From: Priapulus caudatus
Taxonomy: Eukaryota; Priapulida; Priapulimorpha; Priapulimorphida; Priapulidae
Direction of reading: 5' to 3'
NCBI RefSeq assembly: GCF_000485595.1
Contig: NW_014577292.1
Location: forward strand, 7,572 to 71,571
Length of the DNA: 64,000 nt
Shown: positions 25 through 58,242 of the stretch, piece after piece
Position numbering within the stretch: position 1 is the first letter of the stretch
How the letters are laid out: each line of letters starts with the position of its first letter
Position numbers and translations under genes: made by a program
Notes under the pieces: model-generated
Database searches by the model: none
Seen by the model: the letters and a program-made list of their open reading frames with translations, nothing else
What the model was told of the DNA's origin: nothing

Positions 25-307
25 CAAAAAAGGGGCTTGAACGACCGACGGCTGGCGTACCTCCAGCCACTGCGTATTATATTCTCGTTATACATAGAGC
101 GCTTTTACAGCAATTTATTTAAAAGCAGCAGCAGGAGTTTTTTGCCGTTTGCTCATGAGTGGCACTGTGGTGAGTGCTGGGTGAACTTTGTCGTTACAGT
201 CGGTCGTTGTCGCTCGCTACAGTGTGGCTGCGCCAGTCGCCGCGACTTTGTCGTTTGTCGTTACGGTCGGTCGCTGTCGCTGCAGTGTGTCTTGGCCTTT
301 ACTTTGG

Positions 308-551
308 GGTGATACTCCATTAGGAGTGTTTCCAACTTTAATGTCATTAATGGTCATAATAACATATATATATATATGTGGTCATGGTTATATATTAGTT
401 TGTGGTTTAATGTCATTTAGGGTTAGGGTTAGGGTTTGGGTTAGGGTTAGGGTTAGGGTTAGGGTTAGGGTTAGGATTATCAATCATTAATCACTAATCA
501 TTAATCATTAATGATATCAAAGTTGGGAACACTCCTAATGGAGTGTTAGCC
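308..551. mobile_element. Foldback element with TTAGGG loop, 9-bp target duplication
   Basis: Inverted arms of roughly 45 bp share ACTCCATTAGGAGTGTT and a CATTAATG-rich inner part. They enclose a run of TTAGGG units at about 419-475. The element is flanked by the exact direct repeat TTACTTTGG at 299-307 and 552-560. No protein is encoded. The insertion lies in the spacer or intron downstream of the last visible PIGN exon. The 9-bp duplication is typical of Mutator-like elements, but no transposase is present to confirm the superfamily. Confidence 0.75.
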
Positions 552-749
552 TTACTTTGGCCTGAGAAAAAGTTCAATTCTCATACAACATTGACATGTG
601 CATTATATACATTTGTATTCAGCATGTTGTCAACCCATGATTATAATACAATGTTGAAAAGACTGAACAAAATATCGTGCACTTTTAATGATATGATTTA
701 AGTGATTTATTTTTATGATACGACACCTCTGCATTAGTTTTAGACTTAC

Positions 750-3700
750 CAACATCTGTACAGCAATGATTCCTAAACACACAGCCATCACAGCTGCCAT
801 CAGTTGTTGATTTAGCATGAGGTACTTCAAAGCATCACCAAATACCAACCGCCTGTAAGAAAAAAATAGTTTGCTATGTTTCAAATTGTTTGTATCGAAT
901 GATTTGCTATCAAAACGTGAACGATTCTTTTTTAAATCGTGGAAGGGTTTTTGATAATGCAACCCTTCGCAAGTAAATCTCTGTAAAACTGCTGCTTAAA
1001 TACTAGTTAGAGCATTCAAAAATTGCACATACTGACTCAGCACATGTGACCAAAGGATGAATGGCAGAAAGCAGTACACGTAGTACATAGGTGGGCTAGA
1101 TCTGTCTGAAAGAGATGAACACAGAAGCAAAATATAATATTTCCATTAACATGTAGTTTTGGTGCATATTTATGTTACACACAGCAATTTGCATTTGCAT
1201 AATTTAGGATTCTAGACAATGTATCAGCCGAAAGCATTTTAACTAAACATTTAGCAATAAATTCTGATAGGATGATACTCATACATAGCAGATTGGTTGA
1301 AACAAATTACATACCAGCCAGAAAGACTGAAACAGCAGCAAGCAGCAGTAACAAGCGAACGTTTTCTCGCAGTATATACAGCAAGCCTTCCCCATCGTGG
1401 TCATGTGCATTTCTCTGTGGCACGATGTCTGTGTGATGTTGCAGTATTTCTATCACGATGCAGGCAACCCAGCCAAGGAAACTCATCACAACACTGATGT
1501 TGAGTAACAGCCTGTTTATAAGGAAAACCACAATCCATACCATAATTTTAAATGACATGTGAACACATATTGCATACATTATACCAGAATTCGTTAGAAT
1601 ATAGTCAGAACAAACATGCATCATATTAACGAGTCTGCCTAGCTGAATTGTATTTACCAATCATAGGTCTGATAATAGTCCAGTCCAGACAATGCCAAAT
1701 TAATCAGCTCTCTGCCGGCATTTATGGCTCCCTCATACTCCTTCTCCATCAGCAGATTTTTCACATTATCTTTTCTTGAGCTTTGTTCAGAAGCAGGAAG
1801 TAGAGGAAATGGTCTTGCCATCACAGAAAATGTCATATCTAGCTTTTGCTTCTCTTTAACCATGAGCTGTTCTGTAACCTGCAACGCGTTGGTAAACAAA
1901 GCGTGTGCTTTGAAAGAATCCGATTCTTCTAGATAGTCCAGTGGCAGAAGACCAACAGAGTTCATGCTGAAGGGAACACCAATCAGTGAGGACATGAGTG
2001 GGTTGATGTCAGCCTGATTCACGTCGGTACGTCGCACAGAGGCCAATCCCCATTCACTGCTATAATCATCCTGGGGGGCTGTTACTGTGGTTTTCTCTGC
2101 TGCACGTAAACCTGCTCCCCAAGCAACTAACGGAGTCAGCGTCTCGTGTGGGTGGCCTGCACCATGTGACCCTACAAATACCAAATACCAAACCAGTTAT
2201 TTTAAAGGACGTCTGGTGTCACCATAATTGAATTTTCGTTAAAAAAACAAGTATAAATCTGCATATTACTGTAGGCATTTACCAGCTAGTATTGTTTAAT
2301 TATTAGAAATTACTAACTTTGTTAGCAATGTATTTACCAGCATTCTACCAACATCTATTTACTACTGTAGTAAACTATCAAATTTTTGTTGTTAAGTTGC
2401 CTTTTCTAAGTTCCGGTTTAGTTATATGTTGAATACAACTTTAAGCTTCAAACTAATAATTGTAATATAAGTTTATATATACCCCAATTAGTCATGCCAT
2501 GATCAGAGGTAAAAATATAAGCAGTTTTCTGGTCATGTTGAAAGTACTCCTCAATTTCATTGACAACAGTTTCCACTCCCTTGTCAACAAGGTCTATGTT
2601 CTCCATGTATTCCCTAAAAACACAAATTTACTAAAAAAATATATAATAACAATACGGATATATTCGAGGACTTACTCATTTACTAATATTGATATTCATC
2701 AAAACTTCCACACAAATATGACATACACAGAGTTGTATATATTTGCAATAGCCTATTTTTTACAAACTCTTTCAGAATGGTTTAAGATTACTGCATTATA
2801 TTATGTATGGTAGATTAAAACCAACAAGTTACAAAAGTACCTAGACATGGGTCTGTGAGAGTGCCCCTGGGTATCTAGTCCAAGTAGGTGGAGGAATAGA
2901 ACAATCTTGTCCTTGGACAGCATATCTGCTAGCGTTTCATTATTTCCTGCTGACTGTAAATGTTCCTGAAAAGTTTTCACATAGTAACAGAACTAGAATA
3001 GCAAATTTTATTCTTTAATGGAATTATGGCAATATGCAAGATGCCCTAACTAGGTGTTTGCATTGTTTTACTACTGTGAAAACCTACAGGTCTCAGACAT
3101 GTATTTTTTATTAATGGAAGTTGAATGAATATATCCCACCATAATATATAGTGGTGATATCCGACCTAAATTACCTTAAAAGCATTCTGCGACTATAATA
3201 CAAGGACAGTTGACAGCTTTCCTGTACGAATACGATATATAATGTGTATATGTGTATATAATGTGTATAATATATAATATGTCACACACACCTTCACTTT
3301 TTCAAATACCCAGGTATCAAGCACGGATGCATCCTTGGAAGCGAAGTCTTCCATGTCTGGCTCATACATATCAGTGAAAACATGGTCACCTGTTGCACCT
3401 GAAAAAACAAATTAGTCATATGTTGGATCACTTCCAAGTAAATCCAAAAACAAATGCAAGAATTCATAATGTCATTATTTATTCATCATCTCTTCTTGAT
3501 ATAGTATCAACTTTTTATCATAAAAAAGGAAAAACTGCTACATGTATGCAGCAAGAATATAATCAAACAAACTAGTACCTTTGGAAAACATTGGCAGAAT
3601 GTCTGGGCTTCCCCAAGCCCAGGTGTATCGGCTTTCATTGAATAAGGTGTCAAATGGCACTGGGTTCTCTTTCCATCCTAATTTAAGAAAGGAAATGACA

Positions 3701-4952
3701 CTATGAAATGTGACATAGTGGCAATACCTAAGATTAATCTCATATTAATTAGTCTGAATTATACACGGTTAAATGTACCTTTTATAAAATACCACCATAC
3801 AAAGTGAGTTTTATCACATTTTTTTTCACTTTGTTGTTGAGATAACATGCAACTACTATATAGCTGACATGACCTATCTATGATGGAACACATGTAAACA
3901 CCTTTACTTATGTATACACAATATTTATCCGATTCAAATGCAAGCAATCACTGCATATTCTATATTTACATGTTCACATGTCAAAAAGTACAAAAATAAC
4001 GGTACCAGAATTGTCCTTACCCTTTGTTACAGCACTAACATCTTCATAAATACCAGCAATGATAGCAACATGGCCAGGCCGAGATTCTGTAGGCACATGT
4101 GTATGGGACACACCCCATGGACCCCTGTCTTCCACGATTTTCCTATGAAATACAAACAGCTATTTAATTTCATTACACATGTATATATTATGTAAATATG
4201 TTCACAGTTGATTGTTTCCCTCATTTAGGCAGGGTATTTCATCATTTAAAGGAAAACGGCCTAGCAGATGAGTACACATTATGATATTTATTTGATTTAA
4301 AATACTATATACCTACACATTTCTATTCTCAGACATTCACTTTCATTATTAGACATTAAAAGATATTTAAACCGGGCCATGTTATCATGTCATGACACCT
4401 ACAACTTGTCTTGCCTTCTGATGAACTTGGACTTCTTAATCTTTATTTTGCAAGTTTTAGACTATGAGCTAAACACAAAAGTGTCCTATTTATAACCTAA
4501 TTCCCACCTACAATTATTAGAAAGCCTACAAATATGGAAATGTGTATTAATTTGCATTTAAATCCCACCATTGAATAACATTTTATCAAAAATCATATCA
4601 CGTAATAGCTTCAAATACAGATGGCTTTATCAACCATCTATTTTGTTGATGTGTTTACTTGAGTTAGCATATAGGCTAATTATAATTAGATGATGGGGTG
4701 CAGGTATACCAATAAAACATATATATACCTCAAATATTTTGCCGTTTCGCTTTTAGCATGCCCACCAAATAGCGAGTCTGCCCGCAGTCCATCTGCCACA
4801 AACAAGACTAGCCGTTTTGCAGGTGGAGATACTGGCAGTTGATATGGAGTCATGCCATGTACAAGAGGTGTGGTGAAGTAGATGTCAAATATCGAGGAAA
4901 ACAACACCAGATGTATACCAATACAGAGGAAGACCTGCCATTTCTCCTTCAT
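750..4952 (-). CDS. PIGN: GPI ethanolamine phosphate transferase 1 (PIGN), N-terminal part, 10 exons
   Basis: PIGN adds ethanolamine phosphate to the first mannose of GPI-anchor precursors in the ER membrane. Exons on the minus strand, with consistent phases: 4729-4952, 4021-4142, 3579-3677, 3292-3398, 2841-2965, 2483-2613, 1658-2171, 1315-1511, 1051-1105, 750-852, giving 559 codons. A signal-anchor segment is followed by [11 protein letters not shown] (metal site), PTESRPGH (catalytic threonine region), [12 protein letters not shown] and TSDHGM, then [16 protein letters not shown], as in the alkaline-phosphatase fold of the family. The last three exons start the multi-span C-terminal domain. 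The donor at 1050 is weak but keeps frame. The start at 4952 gives the hydrophobic segment directly; an in-frame ATG at 4967 is possible. Human PIGN is about 930 residues, so roughly 370 are not in the window. Confidence 0.93.
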
Positions 4953-5649
4953 CCTTAAACGAAACATTTCTATTGTTTTATATACAGTATTTGCTTTTAT
5001 ATACAGTATCCTAATCATTAAATGTCTTAATTGATTAAACGTCTAACAATAGGCCTATAATTTTACAGTAACACTAGTATTATGAACTACCACTAAAGTA
5101 AAGGAAGGGATGATAAGATTAGAGTTCGGGATTACTAATTATACTAGCCTAGGTATACGTACAATTAAAGCGTGTATTGCGAGAATTTTCCAGTGTTTTC
5201 CCCACTTTTTTGATACCTACCGTTATTGCTTGAGTAACAGCAATTGTCTAGAGTAACAATAAAATGTCTTAGAACCTTCGTATTCACCGAAAACTGCCAG
5301 TTTCAAACTAATCGTTTTTGTAAACATTCGTTTTCTGTCATCTTGAACTAACAGGAAGTATGGATTAGCTTGTGGCACCACCGCTTATCTGCCATAACCA
5401 CCGTACCGGCCCCACCTTTTTTTCAATTCATCACCGACACAAATACAAGTTTACCAATTCTGCCATTAGGCATTGTCGCGACACAATCAAATGCATTGCT
5501 GTTACGATGTGTTCATATCCAATTTTCTATGCTATAAGTATAACTCCATAAAATCTTAGTATTTTTAATGTGGTGTATATCAGTGATATTTTCCGCTGTC
5601 AGGTGAGACTAATATTCAGCTATATTAGTTTTCTGAGCAAAATCTCGGC
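4953..5649. other. Upstream region of PIGN, no gene seen
   Basis: AT-rich sequence on the promoter side of PIGN. I see no long open frame, no clear core promoter motif and no repeat with recognisable ends. Confidence 0.4.
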
Positions 5650-6330
5650 AGTAGGGTCATCCGTGTCAGATGGCAGCCCAATGGTAGCACCTTAACCCCA
5701 TTTCCAAAATTGGCTGAAATTGCTTTATGGGGTAATTATTAGGACTGAAAAAGCTGAAATTCAAGATTCAAGTCTCGTCGGACAAACGGTTTCAGCGCTA
5801 TCGGCCAGCGGCCTTTTGGCAATTTGCGGCCCAAAATGACGCACCGCCGCCTGCAATTTTCAAATGGTCATGATCCTCTGTAACTACAGGCCAAATGCGT
5901 TAATATTGGTGTCTTTGGAAGCTAAATTGGAATAGGCCATCCAAATCTGTCAGTTATTGTTATAGTCGCGCAGTATAAAGTTTGATGACCTTTTGACCTT
6001 TACTTTGACCTTGAATTTGACCCTGTGGATCACGTAACCTTGAGATGAACTTTATTGAAAATTATACCTCAACATGTTTTCTACATAATATACAAAAATT
6101 AGAGATATAATATTTTTTGTTTGCTTTCCAGCTCTTCTCAAAGTTGGCATAGTAGGTGCAATAACGCCTATTCCTATGCAATGCTGTACATGTAGGCACA
6201 TATGTATACCATTCCAATCTATTTCAGATATCAAGTTAATCCCAAACATTGGCTTTGCTGTACATAACTTGATTGAGAATGACAGGTGGCAATAACATTC
6301 TAAATGACTATTCAGTCTAATGAAAAATCA

Positions 6331-7056
6331 TTATATTACCATGTTCTCAATTATCAATAATTCATTGATCATCAATGATCCAGTCCGGATGCACACTTGA
6401 AATCCTCGCAGCATCGTTTTCTGAGATAAAGTACTTTCTGGAAGAGGATGATGTAAGAGATGGGGTGTGTTGATTGTACACAGAATATCATCTTCTGTAA
6501 CCCAGCATTGATCTGTTTCCAATGGCCATTTGAATTGCTTGGTAGGTCCATGAGGGTGCATGAAATTGATGTGGTAGTCCCCAAACTCCTCCGAAATTTC
6601 GTCCACCATGCCAATCCACGGAAAGCCGTCATAAAGACAGCAGACCAAGTTTTGTTCCTTTATTTCTAATTGCACAGATGGTTCTGGTTCTAGTTCTGCA
6701 TCATTACTGTCTGAAACATGTACTAAATCCGCAGGGCCAGCTTGGTTACTCAACTTGTACACATGTAGCGTAGAGTTGGAGACTGGAACTAATCTGTGGT
6801 ATTGCAGTGTCCCTTTAATAGTTTTCACCATGTCAAACCTGTTCTTTAACTCTAAAGCTGATTGAGTTACATCCTCTGGTGTCACATTGAAAAACGTGAT
6901 ACCAGGGATATTCTCCACGTAGAAATCCATAATTCCGTTCGCTGTCAGAATCTGGTCATTATATGGGCGCTGCAGGCTAGCCTTGGTGACTAGTCGCTTG
7001 ACAGTCCCTCCTATACCGTCACAGGCACTCTTGCCATGTGATGTTGCAAAGAAGTT
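6331..7056 (-). pseudogene. Transposon-type protein fragment, longer copy
   Basis: The open frame runs from the loop into the left arm. From 7056 it reads NFFATSHGKSACDGIGG, then TVKRLVTKASLQRPYND and MDFYVENIPGITFF, then the part shared with the right arm (DGFPWIGMVDEISEEFGDY, QCWVTEDDILCTINTP). The first ATG in the usual frame is at 6930, but the frame extends upstream, so the true N-terminus is lost at the inverted junction. I recall similar HGKSACDGxGGTVKR segments as multicopy uncharacterised proteins in invertebrates, which fits a transposase-like origin. I cannot name the superfamily. Confidence 0.55.
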
Positions 7057-7069
7057 CTGAGACAGTAAT

Positions 7070-7408
7070 GATGCAGAACTAGAACCAGAACCATCTGTGC
7101 AATCAGAAATAAAGGAACAAAACTTGGTCTGCTGTCTTTATGACGGCTTTCCGTGGATTGGCATGATGGACGAAATTTCGGAGGAGTTTGGTGACTACCA
7201 CATCAATTTCATGCACCTTCATGGACCTACCAAGCGATTCAAATGGCCATTGGAAACAGATCAATGCTGGGTTACAGAAGATGATATTCTGTGTACAATC
7301 AACACCCCATCTCTTACATCATCCTCTTCCAGAAAGTACTTTATCTCAGAAAACGATGCTGCGAGGATTTCAAAGGTGCATCCGGACTTGATCATTGATG
7401 ATCAATGA
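7070..7408 (+). pseudogene. Transposon-type protein fragment, shorter inverted copy
   Basis: This is the second copy of the C-terminal part of the frame at 6331-7056, in opposite orientation. It has conservative changes (for example MMDEISEEFGDY against MVDEISEEFGDY) and a frameshifted tail after CTINTP. It lacks the segment encoded in the loop, so it cannot be a complete gene. Confidence 0.55.
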
Positions 7409-8115
7409 ATTATTGATAATTGAGAACATGGTAATATAATGATTTTCCATTATACTGAATAGTCATTTAGAATGTTATTGCCACCTGTCATTCTCAATCA
7501 GGTTATGTACAGCAAAGCCAATGTTTGGGTTTAACTTGATATCTTAAATAGATTGGTATGGTATAAATATGTGCCTACATGTACAGCATTGCATAGGAAT
7601 ATAGGCGTTATTGCACCTACTATGCCAACTTTGAGAAGAGCTGGAAAGCAAACAAAAAATATTATATCTCAAATTTTTGTATATTATGTAGAAAAGGTAA
7701 AAATGTTGAGGTATAATTTTCAATGAAGTTCATCTCAAGGTTACGTGATCCACAGGGTCAAATTCAAGGTCAAAGTAAAGGTCAAAAAGTCATCAAACTT
7801 TATACTGCTTCTATATAACAAATAATGACAGATTTGGATTGCCTATGCAAGTATAGCTTTCCAAAGACACCCATATCAACCAATTTGGCCTAGTAGTTAC
7901 AGAGATATAACCATTTGAAAATTGCTGGGTGCGTCCATTTTGGCCAAACTCGCCAAAAAAGGGCGTGGCGTAGCGTGAAAACCGTTTGGCGTTTGTCCGA
8001 TGGAGCTGAAATTTGAAATTTCAGCTTTTCAGCCTAAATTACCCCATGCCCATAAACCAAATTTCAGCCAATTTGAAGTAGGTCAGGTGTAAATTTCCAT
8101 TTTTTTTTGGTGATT

Positions 8116-9221
8116 TGACACGGAATGACCCAATACACACTTTAAAGGCGCACTAGAAAATACATTTACTTTTTCCATTGTAGGAGAGGAAGATCTAGAG
8201 CCTAGACTAGAGGTACTCAAGTCAAGGTGAAGGTGCTTAAATTGATAGAGATAGGCCTACTGTCAAAGCTACTAAATAATATTCCAGCAAAATTTATGAA
8301 AGATGGATTTTGGAAAGATGATTATTTGCTCAGCTCTTATATAACCAGTCATTACACATTTAATCAACAACATGTCATTCAACCAAGGGAATAATTCTTA
8401 TACTAGTCATGAAACATTGAAAGCATACCACAATTGAATAACATGCCATGCCACGATTTATTGATTAACTTGAAGCATGGGCTGAATGTCACAAGTAATG
8501 TTGGAAACAACCACGTTTTATTTAGTAAAACGTTGGACGTATATATATTTCGCGATTATTTATTATCATCTAATCCCACAGTGAATGAAGTACCTTTTCG
8601 GCTTTCCTACTCAGGCTACTGATCTTTCCCATCCATCGACGATCGACGCCATGATCGACGCAGTGCCAGTGGTGCCCTCGTGCGTGCGGTGTGCGCACGA
8701 GATTTGACAGGCAAGTTGGGGCCATAGAAATAATACACTAGTTAATAGACTAAAATGTCTGTATAGATAGGTCATAGATACAATTATTTATTCATCAATG
8801 AATTTCTTATCAATTCAAAGACATATTGATAGGTGGCCTTAGAAGCGAGAATGCTGAGCCCGTTTGCCCGCGTCATTCTGCGTTTCCGACTGGGCGGCGC
8901 CGCGGCGCAACAACTTTTGGTAACAACAGCAACAGGAAAGATAGACTGGTTCATTTCCCATACATCAACCTACGCACTTACAGAGTAAGATGATTGGGGC
9001 CTAGGATCATGGAAAATAGGGTCCATCTAAAGACAGTTCTTCCTGCTACACGCTGAGTTTACTGAGTTAGATTTGTACTTTTGTAGTCTTTTGGTGAGTT
9101 ATATTAGTAATAGTACTAACCTTTGTCACTAGTGTTTGTTACTGATAATATGTTTGCTGCTCTAGCACTTGAACCGTTTCAAGATTAAACTGGTAATGAA
9201 TAAATACAAGTTATATCGACT
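8116..9221. other. Intergenic, no gene seen
   Basis: Low-complexity AT-rich spacer with a short GC-rich patch around 8630-8700 and 8850-8930. No supported coding frame, RNA gene or bounded repeat. Confidence 0.4.
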
Positions 9222-9308
9222 ACCAGTGCCAGTGCCAGTGGCAGTGCCAGGCAGTGGCAGTGGCAGTGCGGCAGTGCCACTGCCACTGGCACTGGCACTG
9301 CCACTGCC
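9222..9308. repeat. GCCAGT tandem array folded into a palindrome
   Basis: Runs of GCCAGT turn into their complement (ACTGGC/ACTGCC) near the middle, forming a perfect-looking hairpin of about 85 bp. More CCACTG units resume at 9616-9640, so the next element interrupts this array. Confidence 0.8.
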
Positions 9309-9615
9309 GCAGATGAGATGGGGTCGTTGTCGTATCAGGTACTAGTACTACAGATATGTACCCGAGGTAGTTTGAAGTTGTTTAGTATTATGTTTATATT
9401 TTTATATGAGGTATGTTTAGGGTTAGGGTTAGGATTAGGGTACACTTCTGGGCTCAGGGATAGAGAAGATGTCCAGTCCTATCTTATCAACTAACATCAT
9501 CCTATCCAATCACCGTACTGTACTGTAGTACAAGTCTGGGGCCACACTTTGTGTATACATATATGTACCTCGGGTACATATCTGTAGTACCTGTTACGAC
9601 AACGACCCCTTGAGC
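9309..9615. mobile_element. Foldback element with TTAGGG loop inside GCCAGT array
   Basis: Inverted arms begin near GGGGTCGTTGTCGTA at 9320 and end with TACGACAACGACCCC at 9609. The inner arms share GATATGTACCCGAGGTA and its complement. TTAGGG/TTAGGATTAGGG units are at about 9418-9440. Direct repeats GCCACTGCC lie at 9300-9308 and 9616-9624. Because the surrounding sequence is itself a CCACTG array, this duplication is weaker evidence than in the other copies. Confidence 0.65.
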
Positions 9616-9640
9616 GCCACTGCCACTGCCACTGACTCGC

Positions 9641-9837
9641 AGCTAGGGCCTGCATACCTCCCAAATGGCCATTGGTTGATACAAATCTAGTTATTTTTTT
9701 AATTAAATATTAATTAGGGTTAGGATTAGGGTTAGGGTCACAATGCACCATAAACGTTTTATTAAAACAGGAGTTTCAGACATGTGATTTGTATCAACCA
9801 ATGGGATTTGGGAGGTATGCAGGCCCTACTAGCTGCG
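9641..9837. mobile_element. Foldback element with TTAGGG loop (second subtype)
   Basis: Arms of about 45 bp share GGCCTGCATACCTCCCAAAT and TTGGTTGATACAAATC and enclose TTAGGG/TTAGGATTAGGG units at about 9715-9740. I could not read a matching target duplication, so boundaries are approximate. Confidence 0.55.
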
Positions 9838-9895
9838 TGTCTGCCACTCGCACTGTGGCACTGACACTCAGTCTAATAGTCACTCTCTCACTGAC

Positions 9896-10854
9896 GCTCA
9901 TAGGGTCAATGACCCCCAGGGTACTGCCGGAACGTACCCTGGGTATACCGGACCATACCCTGGTAACTATTTGATATGGTTAGGGTTAGGGAGTAGGCGT
10001 AGGCGACTATTGATCTTGATTGTGTACTGCGTCGACCGCGTATACGCGTATTATGACGCAGGTGGTGGGGCATGGTGAAATTAGGCGCTCTCGGCTGCGA
10101 CCGCGACACAGATGGCGTCGATTACGGTCTGTGTGCAGGCATACCAGTCCACGATGGTCCGTGGAAAGAATGAGTTCTTGAATTCTTTTGTTGAGGTTCT
10201 AATGACTGCGAGTTTGTTGTCGTTTTTGCTCCTTGTGCGCGATGGACTCATCCTGATGTACTGGACTTTTGGGATCACAGTACTTCCAGAGAGAATTTTG
10301 TTGAGAAGGTTGAGTCGCTTCTCTTTACGGCGTAGGTGAAGATTCGGCCAATTAAGTGATTGTAACATTGCAGTTACGCTGTTGGTTCTGCCATAATCGT
10401 TGCAGACGAATCTAGCTGCGCGGCGTTGGATCATTTCAATTTTTTCTGTCTTTTTTTAAATGTGGGTCCCAGACTGTGCAGGCATACTCTAGCTTAGACC
10501 GAATGAGAGATTTGTATGCCGCTTTCAGCGTTTTGGGCGCGTATTTCAAATTCCTTTTGACGAAGCCAATGGTGCTGTTGGCTTTCGCACATAAACTATT
10601 GATATCTTCAGGGTGTTAGAGAGAATTACGCCGAGATACAGAGTTTACTCAACCTCCTGGAGAAATTTTCCATCTATTTCGTAGAAGTACGATAGTGTCT
10701 TTTTTTCCGTGTTGCACGCAGAATGTAACACTTCTGGGCGTTAAATCGCATGTCTCGGCCCAGGATTGAAGGATGGACAAGACTCCCTAGACTCGTTAGT
10801 AGAGTAGGCGAGGTACGGTCCGGCATATTAGATAGTACCAGGGACCCTCTCAGC
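9896..10854. mobile_element. TTAGGG foldback element split by a LINE insertion
   Basis: The left half (9896-10008) carries CCAGGGTACTGCCGGAACGT, GGTTAGGGTTAGGG and GAGTAGGCGTAGGCGAC. The right half (10785-10854) carries CCCTAGACTCGTTAGTAGAG, TAGGCGAGGTACGGTCCGG and TTAGATAGTACCAGGG. The uninterrupted relative at 50938-51231 shows these halves contiguous. Flanks CTCACTGAC (9887-9895) and GTCACTGAC (10855-10863) differ at one base, consistent with an aged 9-bp duplication. Confidence 0.75.
10009..10784 (-). mobile_element. 5'-truncated non-LTR retrotransposon (LINE), C-terminal RT remnant
   Basis: The minus strand encodes the tail of a LINE reverse transcriptase: MRFNAQKCYIL, YKSLIRSKLEYACTVWDP, then MIQRRAARFVCNDYGR, LNWPNLHLRRKEKRLNLL and FKNSFFPRTIVDWYACTQ ending near 10081. 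This order is typical of CR1/L2/jockey-like elements. At least two frameshifts separate the pieces. It lies inside a foldback element: GACT at 10005-10008 and 10781-10784 may be a short target duplication. No endonuclease or catalytic RT core remains, so it is a dead 3' fragment. Confidence 0.8.
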
Positions 10855-10879
10855 GTCACTGACTCACTCAGGCATCTGG

Positions 10880-13768: not shown

Positions 13769-14014
13769 CTACACTGACCTATCGTACAATGAACAAAATC
13801 TTCACTATAATTCTAGTCACTGCTGATGTCATAACTTACTTTTGATTTTCCTGGACGTTGTACTGTAATTGCAGTGGATCTTGACCAGTTCTTGCTGTAG
13901 CTAGAAAACAATATTTTAATCAAATTTATAAAATGCAAATGAACCCTTGATCAATGTAAACCTTGAAAAATGGTATGTGTAAACTTGTGACTAATAATAT
14001 TATTATAAACATAT
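13769..14014. other. 3' flank of CYBA
   Basis: AT-rich sequence after the CYBA stop. No canonical AATAAA is obvious in the first 200 bp, so the poly(A) site is not placed. Confidence 0.35.
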
Positions 14015-14686
14015 AAGCCTCGTCTACAAGACGAACCTTAACTCGAGTTAAGCGTCTACACGGGGCCTTAACTCGAGTTAAGGTAACTCGAGTTAAGGTA
14101 ACTCGAGTTAGCGTTAACGCGAGTTAGCTTAACCTCGCCAGTCTACGACGCACGCACGTCTACGTGCACATGCACACGCGCGCACACACGCACGCACGCA
14201 CGTGTACGTGCACACACACGCACGCACGTGCACGTGCGCACGCATGTGTACGTGCACACGCACGCACACACTCTTGCACGCACGTGTACGTGCACACGCA
14301 CGCACGCATGCAGGCACGCACGTGTACGTGCACACACACGGACGCACGCACGCATGCACGCACGTGTACGTGTACACGCACGCATGCACGCACGTGTAGG
14401 TACACACGCACGCACGCATGCATGCACGTGTACGTGCGCACGCATGTGTACATGCACATGCACGCACGCACACATGTACGTGCACACGCACGCACTCACG
14501 CATGCACGCACGCACGTGTACGTACACACGCACTCACACACACACACGCACGTTTACATACACACGCACGCACGCATGCATAATAAATCGGTAATAATCG
14601 TTATCGGGTGTTGTCGTGTAGACGCTACATAATCGCTAACTTGAGTTAACGCTTAACGCTTAAGGTTCGTCGTGTAGACGAGGCTT
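14015..14686. mobile_element. Foldback element with CpG-rich ACGTGCAC core
   Basis: Ends AAGCCTCGTCTACA-GACGAACCTTAA and their complement define terminal inverted repeats of about 30 bp. Inside are palindromic AACTCGAGTTAAG blocks, then about 440 bp (14145-14580) of degenerate tandem repeat built from GCACGCACGTGTACGTGCAC. Open frames in the core are repeat artefacts made of Cys/Arg/Val/Ala or His/Thr. The flanking TA bases fit a very short target duplication but cannot be resolved because the ends are palindromic. Confidence 0.75.
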
Positions 14687-14690
14687 ATAC

Positions 14691-16219: not shown

Positions 16220-16548
16220 ATAACGTTATAATAAATCTGAGTGGCTTGGCAGTGTCCAGAGCTAAAGTTACGTTTCTGGCCAGGAGAGGGCGCCTATGGG
16301 TAATTAGGAAAGATGGCCGCGCCCATACACATAATGCAAAGTGATTGCATTTGGTAATTTATCGTGTTTGCTGTAGTTTAGAAATAGTTTTCTCAAAATA
16401 TTGCAGTGGCAACAATCTTACAGCCCGGTCTCAATGTTTTCAGCACTTGGTCACGCTAATTTAACCATCTATTGTATTGAGTATTGAATTTGTACTGCCC
16501 GGGCATAGACTACGAGCTTGTGGAGCAAGCCCGGGGTGGAACACTACT

Positions 16549-16830
16549 GCTGAGAGGGTCTATGTCTCCCGGGGTACTGCCAGAACGTACCCTGGGTACG
16601 GTGGGGTATACCGGAACGTACCCTGGTACTATCTAATATGCCGGACCGTACCTCGCCTACTCCACTAACGAGGCTAGGGAGTCACCTATGCCTACTCCCT
16701 AACCCGAACTCTAACCCGGCCTAATCCTAACCCTAACCATATCAAATAGTGACCAGGGTACGTTCCGGTATACTGGACCGTACCCAGGGTACGTTCCGGC
16801 AGTACCCTGGTGGACATAGACCTTATGAGC
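16549..16830. mobile_element. Foldback element with CCCTAA loop, 9-bp target duplication
   Basis: Long inverted arms contain GGAACGTACCCTGG and TATACCGGA. The centre carries TAGGGAGTCACCTATGCCTA followed by degenerate CCCTAA units at about 16696-16740. Exact direct repeats AACACTACT lie at 16540-16548 and 16831-16839. It is the same subfamily as 50938-51231 and 9896-10854. Confidence 0.85.
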
Positions 16831-16879
16831 AACACTACTAGTACTGTCACTAGAGATATGTTATAACTTATAATTATAT

Positions 16880-18096
16880 CAGGAGTTAATGAGACAAAGG
16901 AGTTTGACTCGTATTTGGTACTGATTTCACTACATTTTTGTCGTACGAGTTCGATGTGAATAACAATACAAATGTATACAAACATGAGCTTCTTTTGTTC
17001 ACTGGTCCTGAATTTTTTATTCTATCTTCTGGTAGTATTACAAACCGCGTAGCTTCCTTCGTTTTGACATAAATCATACTTTGGCACGACATGGTTTTCA
17101 CGTTATTTACCGTCGTGTGGCGTTGCCAAGCCGCAAATTCTCATGCACAGCAACACGAAGGAGGCGCAGCAAGGAATTTAGGCCGTATAGTCTAGCCGAG
17201 TGCAGAAAATGCGCTTAGAAATTACGCTGTGGCTATATGCCCGGCAGCCGGGCATGGTCTTCGATTTCCTAAATGCCCGGCAGTTCCTAACCCTAACCCT
17301 AACCCTATCCCTTGTTTACTTGAGATAACGCTGAAAATTAAAAACCGGGCATTTAGGAAATCGGAGACCGTGCCCGGCAGCCGTCAGATATATGCCAGCT
17401 GCCGGGCATATAGCCACTCTGTAGAAATTAAGTTGTGCCCATGCTGGGTTTAAAAATTTAAACTATTTTACATTTAAACTATAGTTAGAATGCTTTGTTT
17501 TTATGGTTGAATCCAGCAGTTTTTTTTTTAATAAACGCTGCGCTGGTAAAATATCTGAACTACTTCACCCGCGGAGGAATGATGTGTATGAATCTTAGCG
17601 GGTAAATTGACGCTCCAGCTGATTGTAGCTTTTCGCATATGTGTTTTGCATAGCAACCGTTACTGTGTAATTACAGGCAAACGCATGTGTTTACTCCTTA
17701 CTTATCATCACCAATAGTATGTGATAAAGGCGAGAGTTAACGTTGTCATCACCCGGCTTTGTTAGCCGAACAAAAACTTTTTCACGAGATAACGTACGGG
17801 AGACACGATCCCTGCCGCGCCTCCTTCGAGTTGCTGTGCATGAGAATTTGCGGCTTGGCAACGCCACACGACGGTAAATAACGTGAAAACCATGTCGTGC
17901 AAAAGTATGATTTATGTCAAAACGAAGGAAGCTACGCGGTTTGTAATACTACCGGAAGATAAAATAAGGACCAGTGAACAAAAGAAGCTCTTGTTTGTAT
18001 ACATTTGTATTTTTATTCACATCGAACTTGTATGACAAAAATGTAGTGAAATCAGTACCAAATCCGTGTCAAACTCCTTTGTCTCATTAACTCCTG
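16880..18096. mobile_element. Long CAGGAGT-end element, copy 1, with captured ORF in both arms
   Basis: Terminal inverted repeats of about 300 bp start CAGGAGTTAATGAGACAAAG and end with the complement. Both arms carry an ATG frame beginning MSC(K/Q)SMIYVKTKEATRFV and running through ILPED. The flanks ATTATAT (16873-16879) and CTTATAT (18097-18103) differ at one base, giving a probable 7-bp duplication. The related copy 2 is at 45085-46105. The interior has no transposase. A second element, 17225-17421, has inserted into it. Confidence 0.8.
17225..17421. mobile_element. CCCTAA-loop foldback nested in copy 1; empty site in copy 2
   Basis: Arms share GTGGCTATATGCCCGGCAGC and ATGCCCGG/CCGGGCATTTAGGAAATC, with CCCTAACCCTAACCCTA at about 17288-17308 in the loop. 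The exact 9-bp repeat TAGAAATTA lies at 17216-17224 and 17422-17430. The homologous position in the sister element, about 45413-45422, has the single sequence TAGAAATTA, so the unoccupied site can be read directly. Confidence 0.9.
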
Positions 18097-49695: not shown

Positions 49696-49950
49696 CAACG
49701 GTGAAATGCTGAAACCATGCTGCAGTATAAGTCGAATTAATAAACTTTGCCCGTTTTATTTTGACGATTCTTTGACAGCCACTACGTATCTCGAGTCGGT
49801 TTTCGGCGAAAATACCAGATTTTCACCGCTCATTATCTCAGCGTAGGGACATCGTAGGGACAAGCGGTTGGTTTTACATTATCAAGGAAGGGCAGCTGAA
49901 TAATAATACATCAAATAATTATCAAAATAAAACTCGTAAAATGTCTTCTC

Positions 49951-50004
<54 letters not shown>

Positions 50005-50414
50005 TCTCTCTCTCTCTCTTCCCTTCCCTTTTCAATTTTCACCTTCCTATATCTTACGCCATCTTCCCCTTTCTCGTTTCTTTTTTATACCTGTCTCTTC
50101 CTCAGTCCTGCTCCCCCGCTTAACCTCCCCGCATGGCCACTGATAACAGNNNNNNNNNNCAACGGTGAAATGCTGAAACCATGCTGCAGTAGAAGTCGAA
50201 TTAATAAACGTTGCCTGTTTTATTTTGACGATTCTTTGACAGCCACTACGTATCTCGAGACAGTTTTCCGCGAAAATACCAGATTTTCACCGCTCATTAT
50301 CTCAGCGTAGGGACATCGTAGGGACAAGCGGTTGGTTTTACATTATCAAGGAAGGGCAGCTGAATAATAATACATCAAATAATTATCAAAATAAAACTCG
50401 TAAAATGTCTTCTC

Positions 50415-50463
<49 letters not shown>

Positions 50464-50599
50464 TGTTCTTCCCTTGCCTTTTCAATTTTCACCTTCCTAT
50501 ATCTTACGCCATCTTCCCCTTTCTCGTTTCTTTTTTATACCTGTCTCTTCCTCAGTCCTGCTCCACCGCTTAATCTCCCCGCATGGCCACTGATAACAG
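49696..50599. repeat. Near-identical 450-bp duplication separated by an N gap
   Basis: CAACGGTGAAATGCTGAAAC through GCATGGCCACTGATAACAG occurs at 49696-50149 and 50160-50599, with a few substitutions and a different (TC)n length. The two copies abut the run of N exactly, which points to an assembly or haplotype artefact. Confidence 0.85.
50150..50159. other. Assembly gap (10 N)
   Basis: Ten ambiguous bases. Frames crossing it should be ignored. Confidence 1.
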
Positions 50600-50937
50600 C
50601 ACGCTGGTAGTATTTTAAATATTTAATACACTCATTACGATCTGACTAATGAACTAACACGATGAATTTGTCATTGAGATGAGCATCTCCTGCACAGTAC
50701 ACCATTCATCCACTGCTATACACAGTCAACTATTCCATTATTATATACTAGTGTATCTTATATTAATTACCATATACTCATCAAGAGCGGCCAACACTTG
50801 TATTTAACATTAAGTATTATCCTCTCTTGATATCATATACCCGTGTTCAGACGATGTTCAATACCTGTCTGAGCACCACCAAAAAACATAGCGATTACTA
50901 ACAGTAACAATACTTGCCTTCGTCACAAGTTAGCAAT

Positions 50938-51231
50938 GCCGATAGGGTCGATGTCCCCCGGTATACCGGAACGTACCCTGGTAACTATCTAGCTGATATG
51001 GTTAGGGTTATTGTTAGGGTTAGGGTTAGAGTTAGGGTTAGGGTTAGGGTTAGGGTTAGGGTTAGGGTTAGGGAGTAGGCGTAGGCGACTTCCTAGACTC
51101 GTTAGTGGAGTAGGCGAGGTAAGGTCAGGCATATTAGATAGTAGTATTTAGTACCAGGGTACGTTCTGGTATACCGGACCGTACCCAGGGTACGTTCCGG
51201 CACGACCCTGGGGGACATAGACCCTATCAGC
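50938..51231. mobile_element. TTAGGG-loop foldback element, intact reference copy
   Basis: Arms GCCGATAGGGTCGATGTCCC and GGGGGACATAGACCCTATCA with inner GGTATACCGGAACGTACCC. About ten TTAGGG units lie at 51001-51073, followed by GAGTAGGCGTAGGCGACT. Exact 9-bp duplication GTTAGCAAT at 50929-50937 and 51232-51240. Confidence 0.9.
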
Positions 51232-51239
51232 GTTAGCAA

Positions 51240-51864
51240 TAGCACTACGTAAAAATTACATAATTGACTACGCACGTCCTGGAAATACGAAGTTACGTAT
51301 GTTTTACAACGAGCGACAAAAATGGTATCACCAATGACAATATCAGTTTAACGCGTAACTAATAGCGGTTTCAAGGTTTTGCCGCGCGGATAAACCAACG
51401 CATGTATGGTACTCCCCCCCCCCCACTGTCAAATGCCACGGCTTAGTTACATTGACTACCCTACAAGGATTAGTGTGAACAGATTACACTGACAGCTGAT
51501 GGATTTCGGTGCAAGCCAGATGATCATGACTATGCCATCTGCTCATCTAGTTTAGTCATCGCCAGCAGCAGCAGGAGTATCACCCGTGATACCAGGCTTC
51601 GCACCCACCCACTGACCTTTGTATGGATTACGTTACCAACACTGAGAGACACTCGCCCACAATAGTCCCAAATGACGCGCGAATCCTTTCTACTTGGCGC
51701 TTACTCGATTTTTTTCTTTCTCCTGCGTGGCATAAAAGAGCCCCGCTGTTCAGTATGTATACAACCTTGCATTTACCTCGTCTACGGCTGATGCCACTAT
51801 TCGTGATTCATCATGCTCCATCCAGCCATTTCAAATAACCATTTATTCACTATCCATTTCTTCA

Positions 51865-51904
<40 letters not shown>

Positions 51905-54230: not shown

Positions 54231-54244
54231 GTGCAGGCTTTATC

Positions 54245-54274
54245 CAGAGCCGTATATAGAGATATACGGCTCTG
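54245..54274. mobile_element. CAGAGCC palindromic mini-element, 30 bp
   Basis: CAGAGCCGTATA and TATACGGCTCTG arms around TAGAGA. Exact 8-bp duplication GCTTTATC at 54237-54244 and 54275-54282. The smallest of the family. Confidence 0.8.
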
Positions 54275-54297
54275 GCTTTATCCACATATATATATAC

Positions 54298-54352
54298 GAG
54301 AGCTAATAATACATTTATTATTAGCTCTCGAGATTGTATTATTAGCTCTTGA
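54298..54352. mobile_element. Palindrome GAGAGCTAATAATA, three arms
   Basis: CGAGAGCTAATAATA pairs with TATTATTAGCTCTCG, and a further TATTATTAGCTCTTG follows. This suggests a mini-element with a duplicated right end. Confidence 0.5.
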
Positions 54353-54399
54353 TATAAATTATGTACATGGTGTATATAAGCTATTTACATACATGTGCA

Positions 54400-57300
54400 C
54401 AAAACATGTATGTAACAACAGGCGATGATTCAGCAATTGGGAATTCATCGATTAGGGAAAAACTGCATTAAAAGGCAAAATTTGTCTGTCATCTACGGCA
54501 GGCGATGTCAAGTAGAATGTGCAGACAACACATGTACGCGCAGATCTCCGGAATAACTACGACATATGCTGACAAATACACGCGCATCATCTGCCTACAA
54601 CTTCTGCGTGCACTCTACATGTAAGGTCTTGATTGCCAGTATTGTATGTCAGCAGCGTGATAGATTATCGCCATGCTAGCCAAGATGCACGCCGCATATA
54701 TAGGAAAGCACGACCGCGATGCAGTTGAGCCAATAAAGCGGGACGGCGGTATTCGCGGTGGCTCCATGTTTCAAGAACTCAAAGCATGAACTTTGTAGGG
54801 TGTCTTCCAGCTGTCACAGTTGTGTGTATGCTAAAAGCGCGTGCTCGCTCGCTCGCTCGCGTGAGTGTGTGCAGCTGCCGTACCAACCCTGCCAAAATGC
54901 AGGCTGTCCTGTTTACACGATGAACTAGTGCTGTGTTACAGCATTCCTTCCTTTCACATCTGGTTTATTTAAAAGGTGTTTCAAAATCCATGTTGAGGAA
55001 GGGGAGTGATATAGGCGCTATCATCTGACCTGTGCTGGTTCTATATTGGCCATGTGGCTCCAAGCAATCAGCGCACATCTGGCAATTATATTAACTCTGT
55101 GGCATGTGAAAAATTCCAACTTCTCCCATGTGGTAGCCTTGTATAGACTGAGCCATGGGTGTTTGGCGCCGTACAATGTTTTCCTTTTTGCTAGCCATAT
55201 GGGCTGCTAACTGTCACATAAGACTTGATACTTGCTCTTCTTCTGGGTAGCTGTTTATGTAGGAAAAACTAAATGCCAGCAGTAGTTTTTTTTTACCAAG
55301 AATGAAAAAGATCAAACATAAATTTGGTATCAATCTATGTGCAAGTATGTGAAGCAGCAACCAACACGTGTATTCAAGAAATGAAATGAGATATTTACTT
55401 TTTTATACGAAAAACAAAAAATATACAAATAAAAACAATACCATAATAGAAATGTAGACTTGTGGAATGAGTCATAGTCTAATAACAGATGCATCTGCTG
55501 TGGATTACTCACATAACATTCAAATTTCACTGCGCGAACTTTCATCCATATGACGCCAACATTCGGCCTGGCAGTTACACAGTATAGTTCTTTTTACTAG
55601 ATATATTTATATAATATGATAACTAGCAACAATATTTACATACATAACGTTTAAGAATTGAAAACATAAATTAACTGAAAAAATGTAACAATTGATAAAT
55701 CCCACAGAACTTTGTGACAGTCCTGCTACGAGGAGGCGAATCAATTGTACATGTTTAGTGATAAATGATGGCAAAGAAATTGGGTTGAATAACGTCACTT
55801 TATTTTACCAAGATTTCGTTCATGAAGCTAGTGTCAGTATGTGCACATTTAAAATTCTTTCCATCAATTGTATGAACAAATTCCTTGTAGACAAAGCATG
55901 CATGCACATGTGGCAGATGGCTGGCGTATTAGCAGAAGCATTTATGCGTTTACAATAAGAAAGATACCAGAATGCGCAAAAATGTGACAGCAGATCTATA
56001 AAGAATAGCAGTGATAAAAACTCAGTTTTACATCAGTAATGAATTAAGTGCATCTCTGCATCAGCGACGTTCCTTCGTTGTGAGTTTAACATAAAACATA
56101 CAGCGAATCCAGTGACAATTGCTAGCACGATCCTTGATATATATAATGAAATAATAAAACAGGAAGATTAGTTTCCTTTACTTACCATTATTGGTTGATA
56201 ATGATAGTGTGCTCTCGTTTGGGACACTAACGACCTAAAAGCCACAGCTTCGCCACGAAATTCTTGTCATTGCTTAGCAGAACTAAGCTGAGTGCAATGG
56301 AGTTTATGTACCCACCTCACACTTAGTCAAAACAACAGGCGTTTGTACATTTCGGCTGCGCGGCTCTCATGACTAGCACAGATGATGGACAACCGACATG
56401 TGTTTGCCTGATGTTAGCCAAGTGTCGGAATGCTTGTGCTTCCTGGTTTACCAGTGTAGCACGGGGAAGGAACGCCTGGCATGTAAACCGGGCATATTGG
56501 GAAGTGAGCTCCCCGGGTTATAGTTACGAGCAGCGATACCCGAGCTCCCCAGCAGCTGTTCCCAGCCACCCTGAATGTTACATAACCCTGATCACTCCTC
56601 AATTCGGGCTCGCTACCTTCTGTGCCATCAGGAATCATCAGACATCAAAAAGCGGATGGTTCTTGTTAAATGGTGACACCCACTGCCGCATCCTGGTTTG
56701 CATGTGCGGCAATTTATACTAACTGATGGTGTTCCTGGCCATGTGCGTGCCACACACCCATCACAGAACCCGATCCATGTGGGAAGTCTTGTGTTTTCCC
56801 AGAGGAAAGAAGTAACAGGATCACACTTGATTGGTCATGTGAACTGCATTTTTTTAAACATTTTCCCACAATTGCGCACATGCAGCCGTGTAACAATTTT
56901 AGAAAATTCAACCCTGGCAAACTTTCCAGTGACTAAAACATCAACAACCAAGGACCACATGGCTTTACATGCACAAAATATAGAAAAATATGAAATAATT
57001 TGATATCGCTAATATACACGAGCCTTTCCCCTTTGGACAATTGGGTTGGCAAGCCCTAGGGGCAGGTACACACGGCTGCGTGCATACAAGGGTCTATGTA
57101 ATCAATGTGGTGGTGCAAGTACAAAACAGTGTATGCCAGCTGGACTGGTGTTATAAATTTTTCATATTTCATTAACAGCTCAACAATATTACTGTAAATG
57201 TAGATGCCTGGTAGTGGTAGATATATATTCAGGAATAACTTCCAACCGCGGAATAATTTACCATGCGCAGGAAGTGAAACGCAACATTATTGTTATTGCT

Positions 57301-57690
57301 AGTGAAAAGGTGTTCTGGGAAAAAAAAAAATTAAAAATTGTTGCGCTTATAAATTATTTAAAGGTCTCATGAATTTAATGAAAGGCTTATGGAAATGCAA
57401 AAAGACACAAGATTCAGCACGTACTGCATTCAGTCCAAGTAATTAGTGGTTCTATAAATGTAAATTGTTTACTCACACTGCAGTACGCACTAGAACCTAT
57501 GGATAATCACGAAATAAAGATGTATATATATATACATGTGGGCTATAGTATTTGCGCCACTACAACTACTAGAAGGGGCAGCTATCTGTTTAGACATGAT
57601 TGCGTACCTGAGCTACACAGTACACACAGCTCTAGAACAGAAGTTACAGAACTATATAGGCAATATAGCCCTTCGCTCTGCCACAGGCAT
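54400..57690. other. No gene seen
   Basis: Ordinary spacer. A GC-richer block at 56340-56700 with a 117-codon frame shows no domain and no repeat ends, so it is left unassigned. Confidence 0.35.
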
Positions 57691-57705
57691 AGCTCTAGTA
57701 CTATA

Positions 57706-58132
57706 GCTCAAGGGGTCGTTGTTGTCGTATAGGGACTATATAATGCTAGTCTAGGGAGTCGCCTACGCCTACTCCCTAACCCTAACCCAGGGTTCTCCAA
57801 GCTTTTTCATTATAGCATGGCGGGTGCTGCCTTTACGGTCCTAGTTGCAAATCGTCGAAGGCGGTTTGCGTGCTAGGGGGGTCCGGGGGCTATGATATTT
57901 ATAGTGGCGGGTGCATTTTAGGATGGCGGGGCTCGACGATAGCCTGGCGGGCCGCCAGGCTATAAGTGCTCTTGGAGAACCCTTAAACCCTAACGAAAGG
58001 GTCGTTGTCGTATAGGGACTATATAATGCTAGTCTAGGGAGTCGCCTACGCCTACTCCCTAACCCTAACCATATCAGATAGTTACCTCGGGTACATATAT
58101 GTAGTACCCTATACGACAACGACCCTTCGTGC
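57706..58132. mobile_element. CCCTAA-loop foldback element with internal duplication and nested MITE
   Basis: Outer ends GGGTCGTTG(TTG)TCGTATAGGG and CCCTATACGACAACGACCC. The left half, including GGGAGTCGCCTACGCCTACT and CCCTAACCC, appears twice (about 57711-57788 and 58008-58070), with a MITE of about 195 bp between. Flanks AGTACTATA (57697-57705) and AGTACTAGA (58133-58141) match at 8 of 9 bases. Confidence 0.75.
57789..57983. mobile_element. Nested MITE with AGGGTTCTCCAAG ends
   Basis: Ends (C)AGGGTTCTCCAAG and CTTGGAGAACCCT are inverted. The interior has GGGGGGTCCGGGGGC and a GCCTGGCGGGCCGCCAGGC palindrome. The ends are hAT-like. It inserted in CCCTAA repeats, which makes its target duplication unreadable. 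Confidence 0.6.
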
Positions 58133-58242
58133 AGTACTAGAGCTTCCACAGGTAGCTCCAAGAAACGGTCTTGCTAGGGTTAGAAGACCATAGGTAATAT
58201 AGGGTAATATAGACAATCGGTCGCACAGCCTGGTCGAGCTAC

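Follow-up and report, generated by a model that had tools for sequence, protein, structure and literature searches.

Jumping DNA, in the form of hundreds of small hairpin elements, has spread telomere sequence across the chromosomes of this animal genome, and most of the interstitial telomere places sampled in it are transposon-borne. The elements are probably unrelated, non-autonomous foldback DNA transposons of the cut-and-paste type, which carry an inherited telomere tract in their loops and trade halves there. How short telomere repeats enter chromosome interiors is an old question; here the tracts are linked, base by base, with transposon ends, target duplications and families of copies.

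Foldback elements in the window

The window (the whole stretch of 64,000 nucleotides that was analysed) contains eight foldbacks with telomere-repeat loops, all reported by the first-pass annotation and all confirmed by locating them again in the sequence; no strand is assigned to any of them. Family A comprises E4 (9887..10863; element 9896-10854, tract 9980-9991, duplication CTCACTGAC/GTCACTGAC matching at 8/9), E5 (16540..16839; element 16549-16830, exact duplication AACACTACT, tract 16697-16738 with the C-rich strand on +) and E7 (50929..51240; element 50938-51231, exact duplication GTTAGCAAT, tract 50997-51073). Family B comprises E2 (9300..9624; element 9309-9615, tract 9416-9441), with the duplication GCCACTGCC read directly in the sequence at 9300-9308 and 9616-9624, and E8 (57697..58141; element 57706-58132, duplication AGTACTATA/AGTACTAGA matching at 8/9), in which family B termini surround part of a family A core and the left part occurs twice (57718-57787 and 58001-58070), on either side of a further insert. 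The remaining three are a family C foldback, E1 (299..560; element 307-551, 8-bp duplication TTACTTTG, TTAGGG tract 417-479), a family D foldback, E3 (9626..9849; element 9635-9840, tract approximately 9711-9738, best-fit duplication CTGCCACTG/CTGCCACTC matching at 8/9) and a family E foldback, E6 (17216..17430; element 17225-17421, exact duplication TAGAAATTA, tract 17286-17312). E4 is interrupted by an insert that, judged by eye, resembles, on the minus strand, the 3' end of a LINE, and E6 is nested inside another foldback (16880-18096).

Four exact 9-bp flanks had been claimed, and exact repeats do abut the arm ends of E1, E5, E6 and E7, but E1 is better placed as an element with an 8-bp duplication because family C fits 8 bp better; its alternative limits (308-551, with the 9-bp duplication TTACTTTGG) were set aside. 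The two flanks described as matching at 8 of 9 positions are indeed those of E4 and E8, and the exact duplication described as lying in a tandem array is that of E2, which sits in a CCAGTG array, yet has a duplication that fits the target motif of its family. Since E3 lies in the same array, its duplication says little alone.

Together the eight elements make up 2,916 bp of the window, later inserts included, and contain 10 of its 11 tandem TTAGGG tracts (at least two hexamers).

Arm families, genomic copies and target choice

The arm sequences had been taken to form several unrelated groups, which holds for the distinct arms of C, D and E but not for A and B, which agree in their terminal motif and in their choice of target; moreover, E8 has B ends and a 47-bp match to A at 98%. 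Families A and B are not independent, having both ends and cores in common. A single family for all elements was rejected, since the only matches that the C, D and E arms have within the window are with one another and with the tract; in place of the one mobile element that had been proposed there are several families, differing in duplication length and target preference. The arms of A show a partly repeated unit of 21-30 bp, and C has a short AATCATT array. The labels of families F to M, the interpretation of locus L148, the nested element at L142 and the family C junctions were assigned by reading the sequence.

Copies were sought in the window's own genome (385 Mb), those of B, C, D and E with single-arm queries that excluded the telomere tract and those of A with the tract in the query; first-look candidates numbered 414 to 1930 per family, and the copies taken from all families were the best-scoring ones rather than a random sample. 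Exact 9-bp duplications flank 20/28 copies of family A, 14/20 of family B and 12/20 of family E (46/68 pooled), several of those of E being AT-only words such as ATAATAATA, whereas an exact 9-mer match was found by chance in 107 of 2,000,000 random position pairs 200-400 bp apart in the window. Both ends were found in 14 of the 20 fetched copies of family C, and the duplication is exact at 8 bp in 11/14 and at 9 bp in 7/14. Family D is weak in this respect, with an exact duplication and good ends in only 3/20 copies; one copy of family F has a 9-bp duplication and one of family G an 8-bp duplication. Thus, target duplications at dispersed sites support the mobility of the elements. With long inverted arms able to snap back around a short loop and, in A, B, C and E, target duplications around dispersed copies, they resemble FB-type transposons.

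The target preferred by A and B is NNNANTNNN: A4 and T6 are present in 20/20 exact duplications of family A and in 14/15 of the family B list, against 0/8 in family C and 4/13 in family E, which make no such choice. Because A and B choose NNNANTNNN and C fits 8 bp better, more than one transposase is likely. The 8-bp duplication of C is that expected of hAT transposons, which have a CAGNG-like terminal motif; C is not filed among them because its ends (GGGTGATAC and GGCTAAC) lack such a motif. An exact-pattern search for relatives gave 0 matches in viral_contigs and 0 in genome_contigs. Within the length limits of the protein search, an exon of a host gene had 5 hits, none above 48% identity, and the named relatives of a 268-aa ORF were all from animals.

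The telomere tract and its genomic distribution

At least one TTAGGG hexamer is present in 76/80 stretches fetched by their arms, and at least two in 68/80. The proposal had been staked on the tract being commoner here than in other foldbacks, and it is so in the part of that comparison that was run: among eight other foldbacks of the window, hand-picked from palindrome lists (one of which showed 25 of 48 pairs), none has a telomere hexamer that is part of the element itself (0/8). In a further palindrome family of this genome most members leave no room for a tract: 24/29 facing pairs span at most 110 bp among the first 100 places listed. A telomere loop as a trait of every foldback was rejected on these two grounds. 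The small palindrome at 58818-58910, which counts against the explanation preferred here, lacks any telomere hexamer even though its arms are flanked by an exact 9-mer, GGATTAGTT.

In DNA folding, the tract is placed in the predicted hairpin loop of both folded elements, E7 (z -8.05; 63/77 tract positions unpaired) and E6 (z -12.4; its tract read as unpaired). Tract length differs between copies in hexamer steps.

Viewed from the tract side, overlapping matches to (TTAGGG)4 number 1909 and 2007 in the genome, whereas the reversed control gives 0 and 1. In a run of 20 (TTAGGG)4 places taken in listed order, 12 lie between inverted arms, compared with 9/400 random positions, and 15/20 lie in foldbacks once homologues of A and B are counted. 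The suggestion that mobile elements could explain interstitial telomere tracts is borne out, as they hold most of the 20 places sampled. Interstitial telomeric sequences formed by break repair are not known to be inserted with target duplication or as part of a transposon; the tracts here lie between arms with duplicated targets. Nor do the elements resemble the TRAS/SART/MoTeR type, which inserts into telomere arrays and encodes reverse transcriptase, copies of A to E being short, inverted-repeat and internal. Twenty random 10-kb stretches (approximately 122 kb non-N, too little for a rate) contained no tract of at least two hexamers; in one of them a gap truncates a family B arm, and another includes a copy of the dispersed repeat S, described below.

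Half-elements joined at the tract

Among 95 listed junctions of family D, 44 carry an unrelated left half, repeat S, and among 99 listed places of S, 44 are joined to the right half of D, both listings covering contigs up to C163. The left arm of D is present in 14 of 20 fetched D right halves, absent in 5 and unclear in 1. Loci L120 and L123 have another left half in common (72% over 181 positions). L144, which has an exact duplication, has 66 bp in common with E8 at 86%, spanning the B-to-A junction, though the A consensus matches only 17 bp of L144. The left arm of family C meets the tract at no fewer than three different points (by reading). At these junctions a given half-element is linked across the tract with more than one kind of partner half, and some of the joins are multi-copy; the first-pass annotation had not noted this behaviour of the tract as a meeting point for halves of different families. 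Assembly gaps adjoin several such elements, and single-copy chimaeras may be assembly errors. Exchange at the tracts is read here from its apparent end products, and retroelement insertion or microhomology deletion could yield some of the joins. Single-linkage clustering of tract flanks grouped unlike flanks and was set aside.

Origin and spread of the tracts

The probable explanation is that foldback families, moved by at least two putative transposases, pass the tract on by inheritance. Where they lie in the loop of a palindrome, tracts may break or stall in replication or gap repair; the telomere repeats exposed would then prime on the tract in a different element, and families would exchange loops and halves. 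One acquired tract could thereby spread into unrelated families. In a fungus, interstitial tracts with at least three TTAGGG units are described as breaking and being repaired by break-induced replication (PMC7367193). The first tract may have come either from a TTAGGG-tailed repeat or from the action of telomerase on a break. Quite possibly, though short of probably, the tract is a shared, recombination-prone module through which exchange reaches beyond the family and perhaps beyond the superfamily; transposons that differ in their transposases and have unrelated ends would swap halves there, and telomere sequence would thereby have been carried to perhaps more than 1,000 internal sites.

A separate gain of the tract by each family, when the hairpin tip of its founder broke and telomerase or end-joining acted there, followed by inheritance in the copies and no exchange between families, seems unlikely, though it deserves consideration: by reading, tract flanks in C, D and E differ between families and variant hexamers are common to copies of one family, and vertebrate interstitial telomere repeats are reported to be inserted at double-strand breaks (PMC8537989). 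Against it, E8, L144 and the multi-copy join of S, tract and D indicate sharing across families, and rare events that placed the same repeat at the same position in many families are less economical, even if the first gains could have occurred so. It is decidedly improbable that the foldbacks are passive landing sites for a dispersed repeat S with a TTAGGG tail, inserted into or next to the loops, and that the tracts are its tails or remnants. S has 311 matches and contains a word like the tRNA B-box; a pattern that places (TTAGGG)2 within 30-60 bp after S matches 151 times, with some overlap, and the control 0 times, and at L134, L141 and L125 S lies left of the tract with differing right sides. 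However, among the fetched loci S (at least 50 bp, E at most 1e-6) is found only in these three and in random stretch L043, which lacks a tandem tract; it is absent from the fetched copies of A, B, C and E, and ARAGORN finds no tRNA in L134 or L141. Since 44 of the 99 places listed for S lead into the tract-arm junction of D itself, the tail may belong to D.

A functional tract, which would bind telomere proteins or form a G-quadruplex in the loop and so aid replication, movement or site choice, is improbable: the tract is kept in most copies of unrelated families even though its length varies by hexamers, and its predicted position in the hairpin loop of two elements is suggestive, but in family A the tract blocks diverge more per column (0.046-0.123) than the arms (0.007-0.029), which argues against strict sequence constraint. 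Gaps beside several elements and single-copy joins are what assembly artefact or chance would produce, a reading that is scarcely credible given the exact duplications of A, B and E and the excess of (TTAGGG)4 over its control, both of which refute it for the elements themselves.

Relation to known transposons and telomere-repeat elements

A literature search found no description of foldback families with telomere-tract loops. Inherited tracts and exchange of halves among foldback DNA transposons, the reading preferred here, would nevertheless have several partial parallels. The duplications of A, B and E (9 bp) and C (8 bp) fall within the 8-11 bp of MULEs, which often have long terminal inverted repeats, and among which Rehavkus combines 9-bp duplications with an internal minisatellite (PMC6446971, PMC5225508, and PMC6446971 for Rehavkus). 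Rehavkus is marked by a PHD-finger transposase. The MULE domain is present in the genome (46 matches); at the 2 of 46 loci read, no transposase with matching ends, and no autonomous or coding partner with A to E ends, was found. Muta1 is described as having no target preference (PMC5225508), whereas A and B have one. Tm1 of root-knot nematodes, a Mutator/Foldback element, has duplications of 8-10 bp (mostly 9) at 45/53 complete elements, and resembles the present families in its foldback inverted repeats, its MITE-like members and the capture of a host motif, the histone hairpin, between its arms; it differs in that its terminal inverted repeats consist largely of 13-15 bp tandem repeats and that "telomer" is absent from the main text of the article (PMC3169594), whereas here the piece between the arms is a telomere repeat found in families with unrelated arms.

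Interstitial telomeric sequences of the TERC-ITS kind are also short internal TTAGGG tracts, but PMC8537989 reports no preferential insertion by transposon content, whereas most tracts sampled here are inside transposon-like elements. Many of the sampled tract-bearing elements have target duplications. MoTeRs are likewise mobile DNA carrying telomere-like repeats (PMC7367193), and interstitial tracts are described as sites of breakage and recombination; MoTeRs and FoTeRs are, however, retroelements at chromosome ends (PMC7367193, PMC12857005), unlike the internal foldback DNA elements found here.

Tests can now address whether telomere proteins bind the tracts in the loops, whether these tracts are fragile or act as healing points, and whether unrelated transposons exchange parts via an identical loop. 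Caution is indicated in that, in assemblies of genomes of this kind, interstitial telomere signals and gaps may point to transposons rather than to fused chromosomes. The eleventh tract of the window, CCCTAA repeats at 5-22 (in feature 1..60, no strand assigned), lies directly right of an assembly gap; the window start was considered as a contig end, which was rejected as the window spans positions 7572-71571 of its contig and the preceding 1,000 bases are all N. Its flank matches a dispersed repeat also present at locus L145 (92%, 48 bp).

Foldback elements with telomere repeats in the loop

The eight foldback elements of the window (E1 to E8), in which inverted arms surround a TTAGGG/CCCTAA tract, were detected by two methods and by direct reading of the sequence, and include 10 of the window's 11 tandem TTAGGG tracts. 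The first-pass annotation had attributed exact 9-bp target duplications to four of them (E1, E5, E6 and E7) and duplications matching at 8 of 9 positions to two others (E4 and E8); a search around the arm ends found all six again, and the duplication of E2, read from the sequence, is GCCACTGCC. By chance, random pairs of 9-mers drawn from the window 200-400 bp apart are identical in 107 of 2,000,000 draws. The element set as first proposed is real, strongly non-random and genome-wide, with a wider extent than was claimed, but it is less uniform. Movement of the elements looks ordinary; what is new is that unrelated families share a telomere loop and that this loop serves as a joining point. 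Among the titles and abstract openings listed for open-licence papers, none describes transposons whose loop holds telomere repeats; other descriptions may exist outside that scope, in which Repbase is not included.

Grouped by their arms, the elements form families A (E4, E5 and E7), B (E2 and E8), C (E1), D (E3) and E (E6). The genome (385 Mb in 2,952 contigs, the window being G000:C232:7572-71571) yielded 1930 first-look candidates for A with the whole of E5 as query, and 1164 for B, 507 for C, 636 for D and 414 for E with a single tract-free arm as query, numbers that are not counts of verified copies, 40 candidates having been scored per family. The junction of tract and arm in D has 142 + 141 exact matches in the genome. 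All 40 scored places of B are 100% identical over 70 bp, which suggests that B transposed recently.

Two elements carry inserts: that of E4 (10036-10780) has a minus-strand ORF (10081-10455) which by eye resembles the 3' terminus of a LINE reverse transcriptase, and that of E8 (57788-57987), with inverted ends CAGGGTTCTCC and GGAGAACCCT, lies between two copies of the left part of E8. The CCCTAA at the left edge of the window was considered as a contig end and rejected because the 1,000 preceding bases are N; its flank matches a dispersed repeat of another locus (L145) at 92% over 48 bp.

As single-stranded DNA, E7 and E6 fold more stably than shuffled sequences (z -8.05 and -12.4, respectively), with 63 of 77 tract positions unpaired in the predicted fold of E7 and, by reading, all of them in that of E6. 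The predictions show a capacity of both elements for a hairpin with the tract in its loop, a capacity and not an occurrence in the cell.

Target duplications and transposases

Exact 9-bp duplications flank 20 of 28 copies of A (28 of 40 scored places, E5 included). With 20 of the 40 scored places considered for each other family, exact duplications were found in 14/20 copies of B, 12/20 of E (AT-only words among them) and, with good ends, 3/20 of D (L111, L114 and L129); both ends could be located in 14/20 copies of C, of which 11 have an exact 8-bp match and 7 an exact 9-bp match. In duplication lists compiled by hand, the exact duplications of A have A at position 4 and T at position 6 in 20/20 cases, and this A-N-T pattern fits 14/15 duplications of B (14 copies and L144), 0/8 of C (including E1) and 4/13 of E (including E6). 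Since duplication length and target preference differ between families, we infer that the families depend on more than one transposase.

The 9-bp duplications and long inverted repeats fit the Mutator superfamily, for which PMC6446971 gives duplications of 8-11 bp. Assignment to that superfamily is withheld because no transposase with the same ends was found: the MULE domain has 46 matches in the genome, and the two of these loci examined lack ends of families A to E.

Telomere-repeat tracts across the genome

Overlapping matches to (TTAGGG)4 in the genome number 1909 in forward and 2007 in reverse orientation, the reversed pattern giving 0 and 1; 42 places account for the first 100 matches listed, which would scale to approximately 1,600 places genome-wide. 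Among 20 tract places (the first in listed order, contigs C1 to C4, two close ones being joined as L147), 12 are bounded on both sides, within 350 bp, by inverted arms no shorter than 25 bp and at least 80% identical; for randomly drawn positions the count is 9 of 400 (Fisher p = 5.8e-13). Of the 20, eight belong by homology to A and two to B, and the addition of three A/B copies that failed the arm test places 15/20 in elements. These include two new arm families, F (L136, exact duplication TGCGGGTAG) and G (L139, exact 8-bp duplication GTTACTTT), and other new ones (L141, L147 and L149) at which a search for duplications found none. Of the remaining five, L134, L145 and L146 have matches to other dispersed repeats beside the tract, L137 lies at an assembly gap, and L148 was given no class.

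Counted on the better strand of whole fetched stretches, at least one hexamer is present in 28/28 copies of A, 20/20 of B, 18/20 of C, 19/20 of D and 19/20 of E, and at least two in 28/28, 19/20, 18/20, 16/20 and 15/20, respectively, the figure for A being biased because its query held the tract, and those for B to E, obtained with tract-free queries, referring to best-scoring copies. The single hexamer of L064 lies outside the remains of the arm itself; by reading, the tract-less copies L064, L077, L092 and L124 are without a second arm, and the tract-less L086 is interrupted by a gap. Tract length differs among copies by hexamers, and variant hexamers are shared by copies of one family, as expected from inheritance plus slippage. 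Divergence in A is higher in the tract blocks than in the arms.

Eight other foldbacks of the window, picked from two inverted-arm searches (one with 25 of 48 pairs listed), have no telomere hexamer of their own, the one at 16880-18096 containing E6 as a nested insert; a search at their ends found no non-repetitive 9-bp sequence that is exactly duplicated. The nearest to an exact duplication is TAAACATATA/TATACATATA (9/10) around the foldback at 14012-14689 (ends AGCCTCGTCTACAAGACGAA), which has an ACGC-type microsatellite core in place of telomere repeats. A small palindrome (58818-58910), within a cluster of other foldbacks, has the exact 9-mer GGATTAGTT adjoining its arms and no hexamer. 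A further palindrome family, with ends CAGGAGTAGATAATA, has 934 + 946 = 1,880 matches in the genome, and 24 of the 29 pairs that face each other within its first 100 listed places span 110 bp or less; these are very small palindromes, many of the pairs being 35-90 bp across. Most arm-selected copies carry the hexamer, against none of the eight window foldbacks. One longer CAGGAGTAGATAATA copy (L142) does have, by reading, CCTAACCCTAACC between its arms and ATATATGT on either flank.

The tract as a joining point

Halves of different origin meet at the tract. In E8, B ends and 47 bp matching A at 98% are present; L144, which has an exact duplication, shares with E8 66 bp (86%) spanning the B-to-A junction. 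Such a mosaic seems, from this shared junction and duplication, to have moved as a unit, a weak case because the A consensus matches only 17 bp in L144. Of 20 copies of the right half of D, 14 keep the left arm of D, 5 lack it and 1 is unclear; among the places listed (contigs up to C163), this right half is joined to a dispersed repeat, S, at 44/95 junction places, equal to 44/99 S places. S also stands left of tracts with different right sides (L134 and L141), a third left half is common to L120 and L123 (72% over 181 positions), and in C the left arm, by reading, enters the tract at at least three points (L075, L076, L079, L080, L081, L085 and L090). On their sequence, these joins can be read as exchange or deletion with one end in the tract. 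A fungal study concludes that three or more TTAGGG repeats are enough for stalling and breakage, with break-induced replication between tracts (PMC7367193); by analogy, such tracts may break in the present genome too.

S itself (TTTACATGATTTATTTACAAC, 162 + 149 matches, e.g. in L134, L141, L125 and L043) is often followed by TTAGGG repeats and carries a word resembling a tRNA B box; ARAGORN found no tRNA in L134 or L141. On its minus strand, L134 matches U2 snRNA at 625-730 (Rfam RF00004, 64.8 bits), a piece that is probably a U2-derived copy.

Other features of the window

A large foldback (5707-8074, arms of approximately 1 kb at 90%) includes a minus-strand ORF of 268 amino acids, which has no Pfam match and 285 relatives with E-values no higher than 1e-8, the named ones among the 120 listed being from animals, as would fit an animal host. 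Two near-identical neighbouring stretches around a run of N (49776-50593), with the same peptide words in two ORFs, are possibly a duplicated assembly end.
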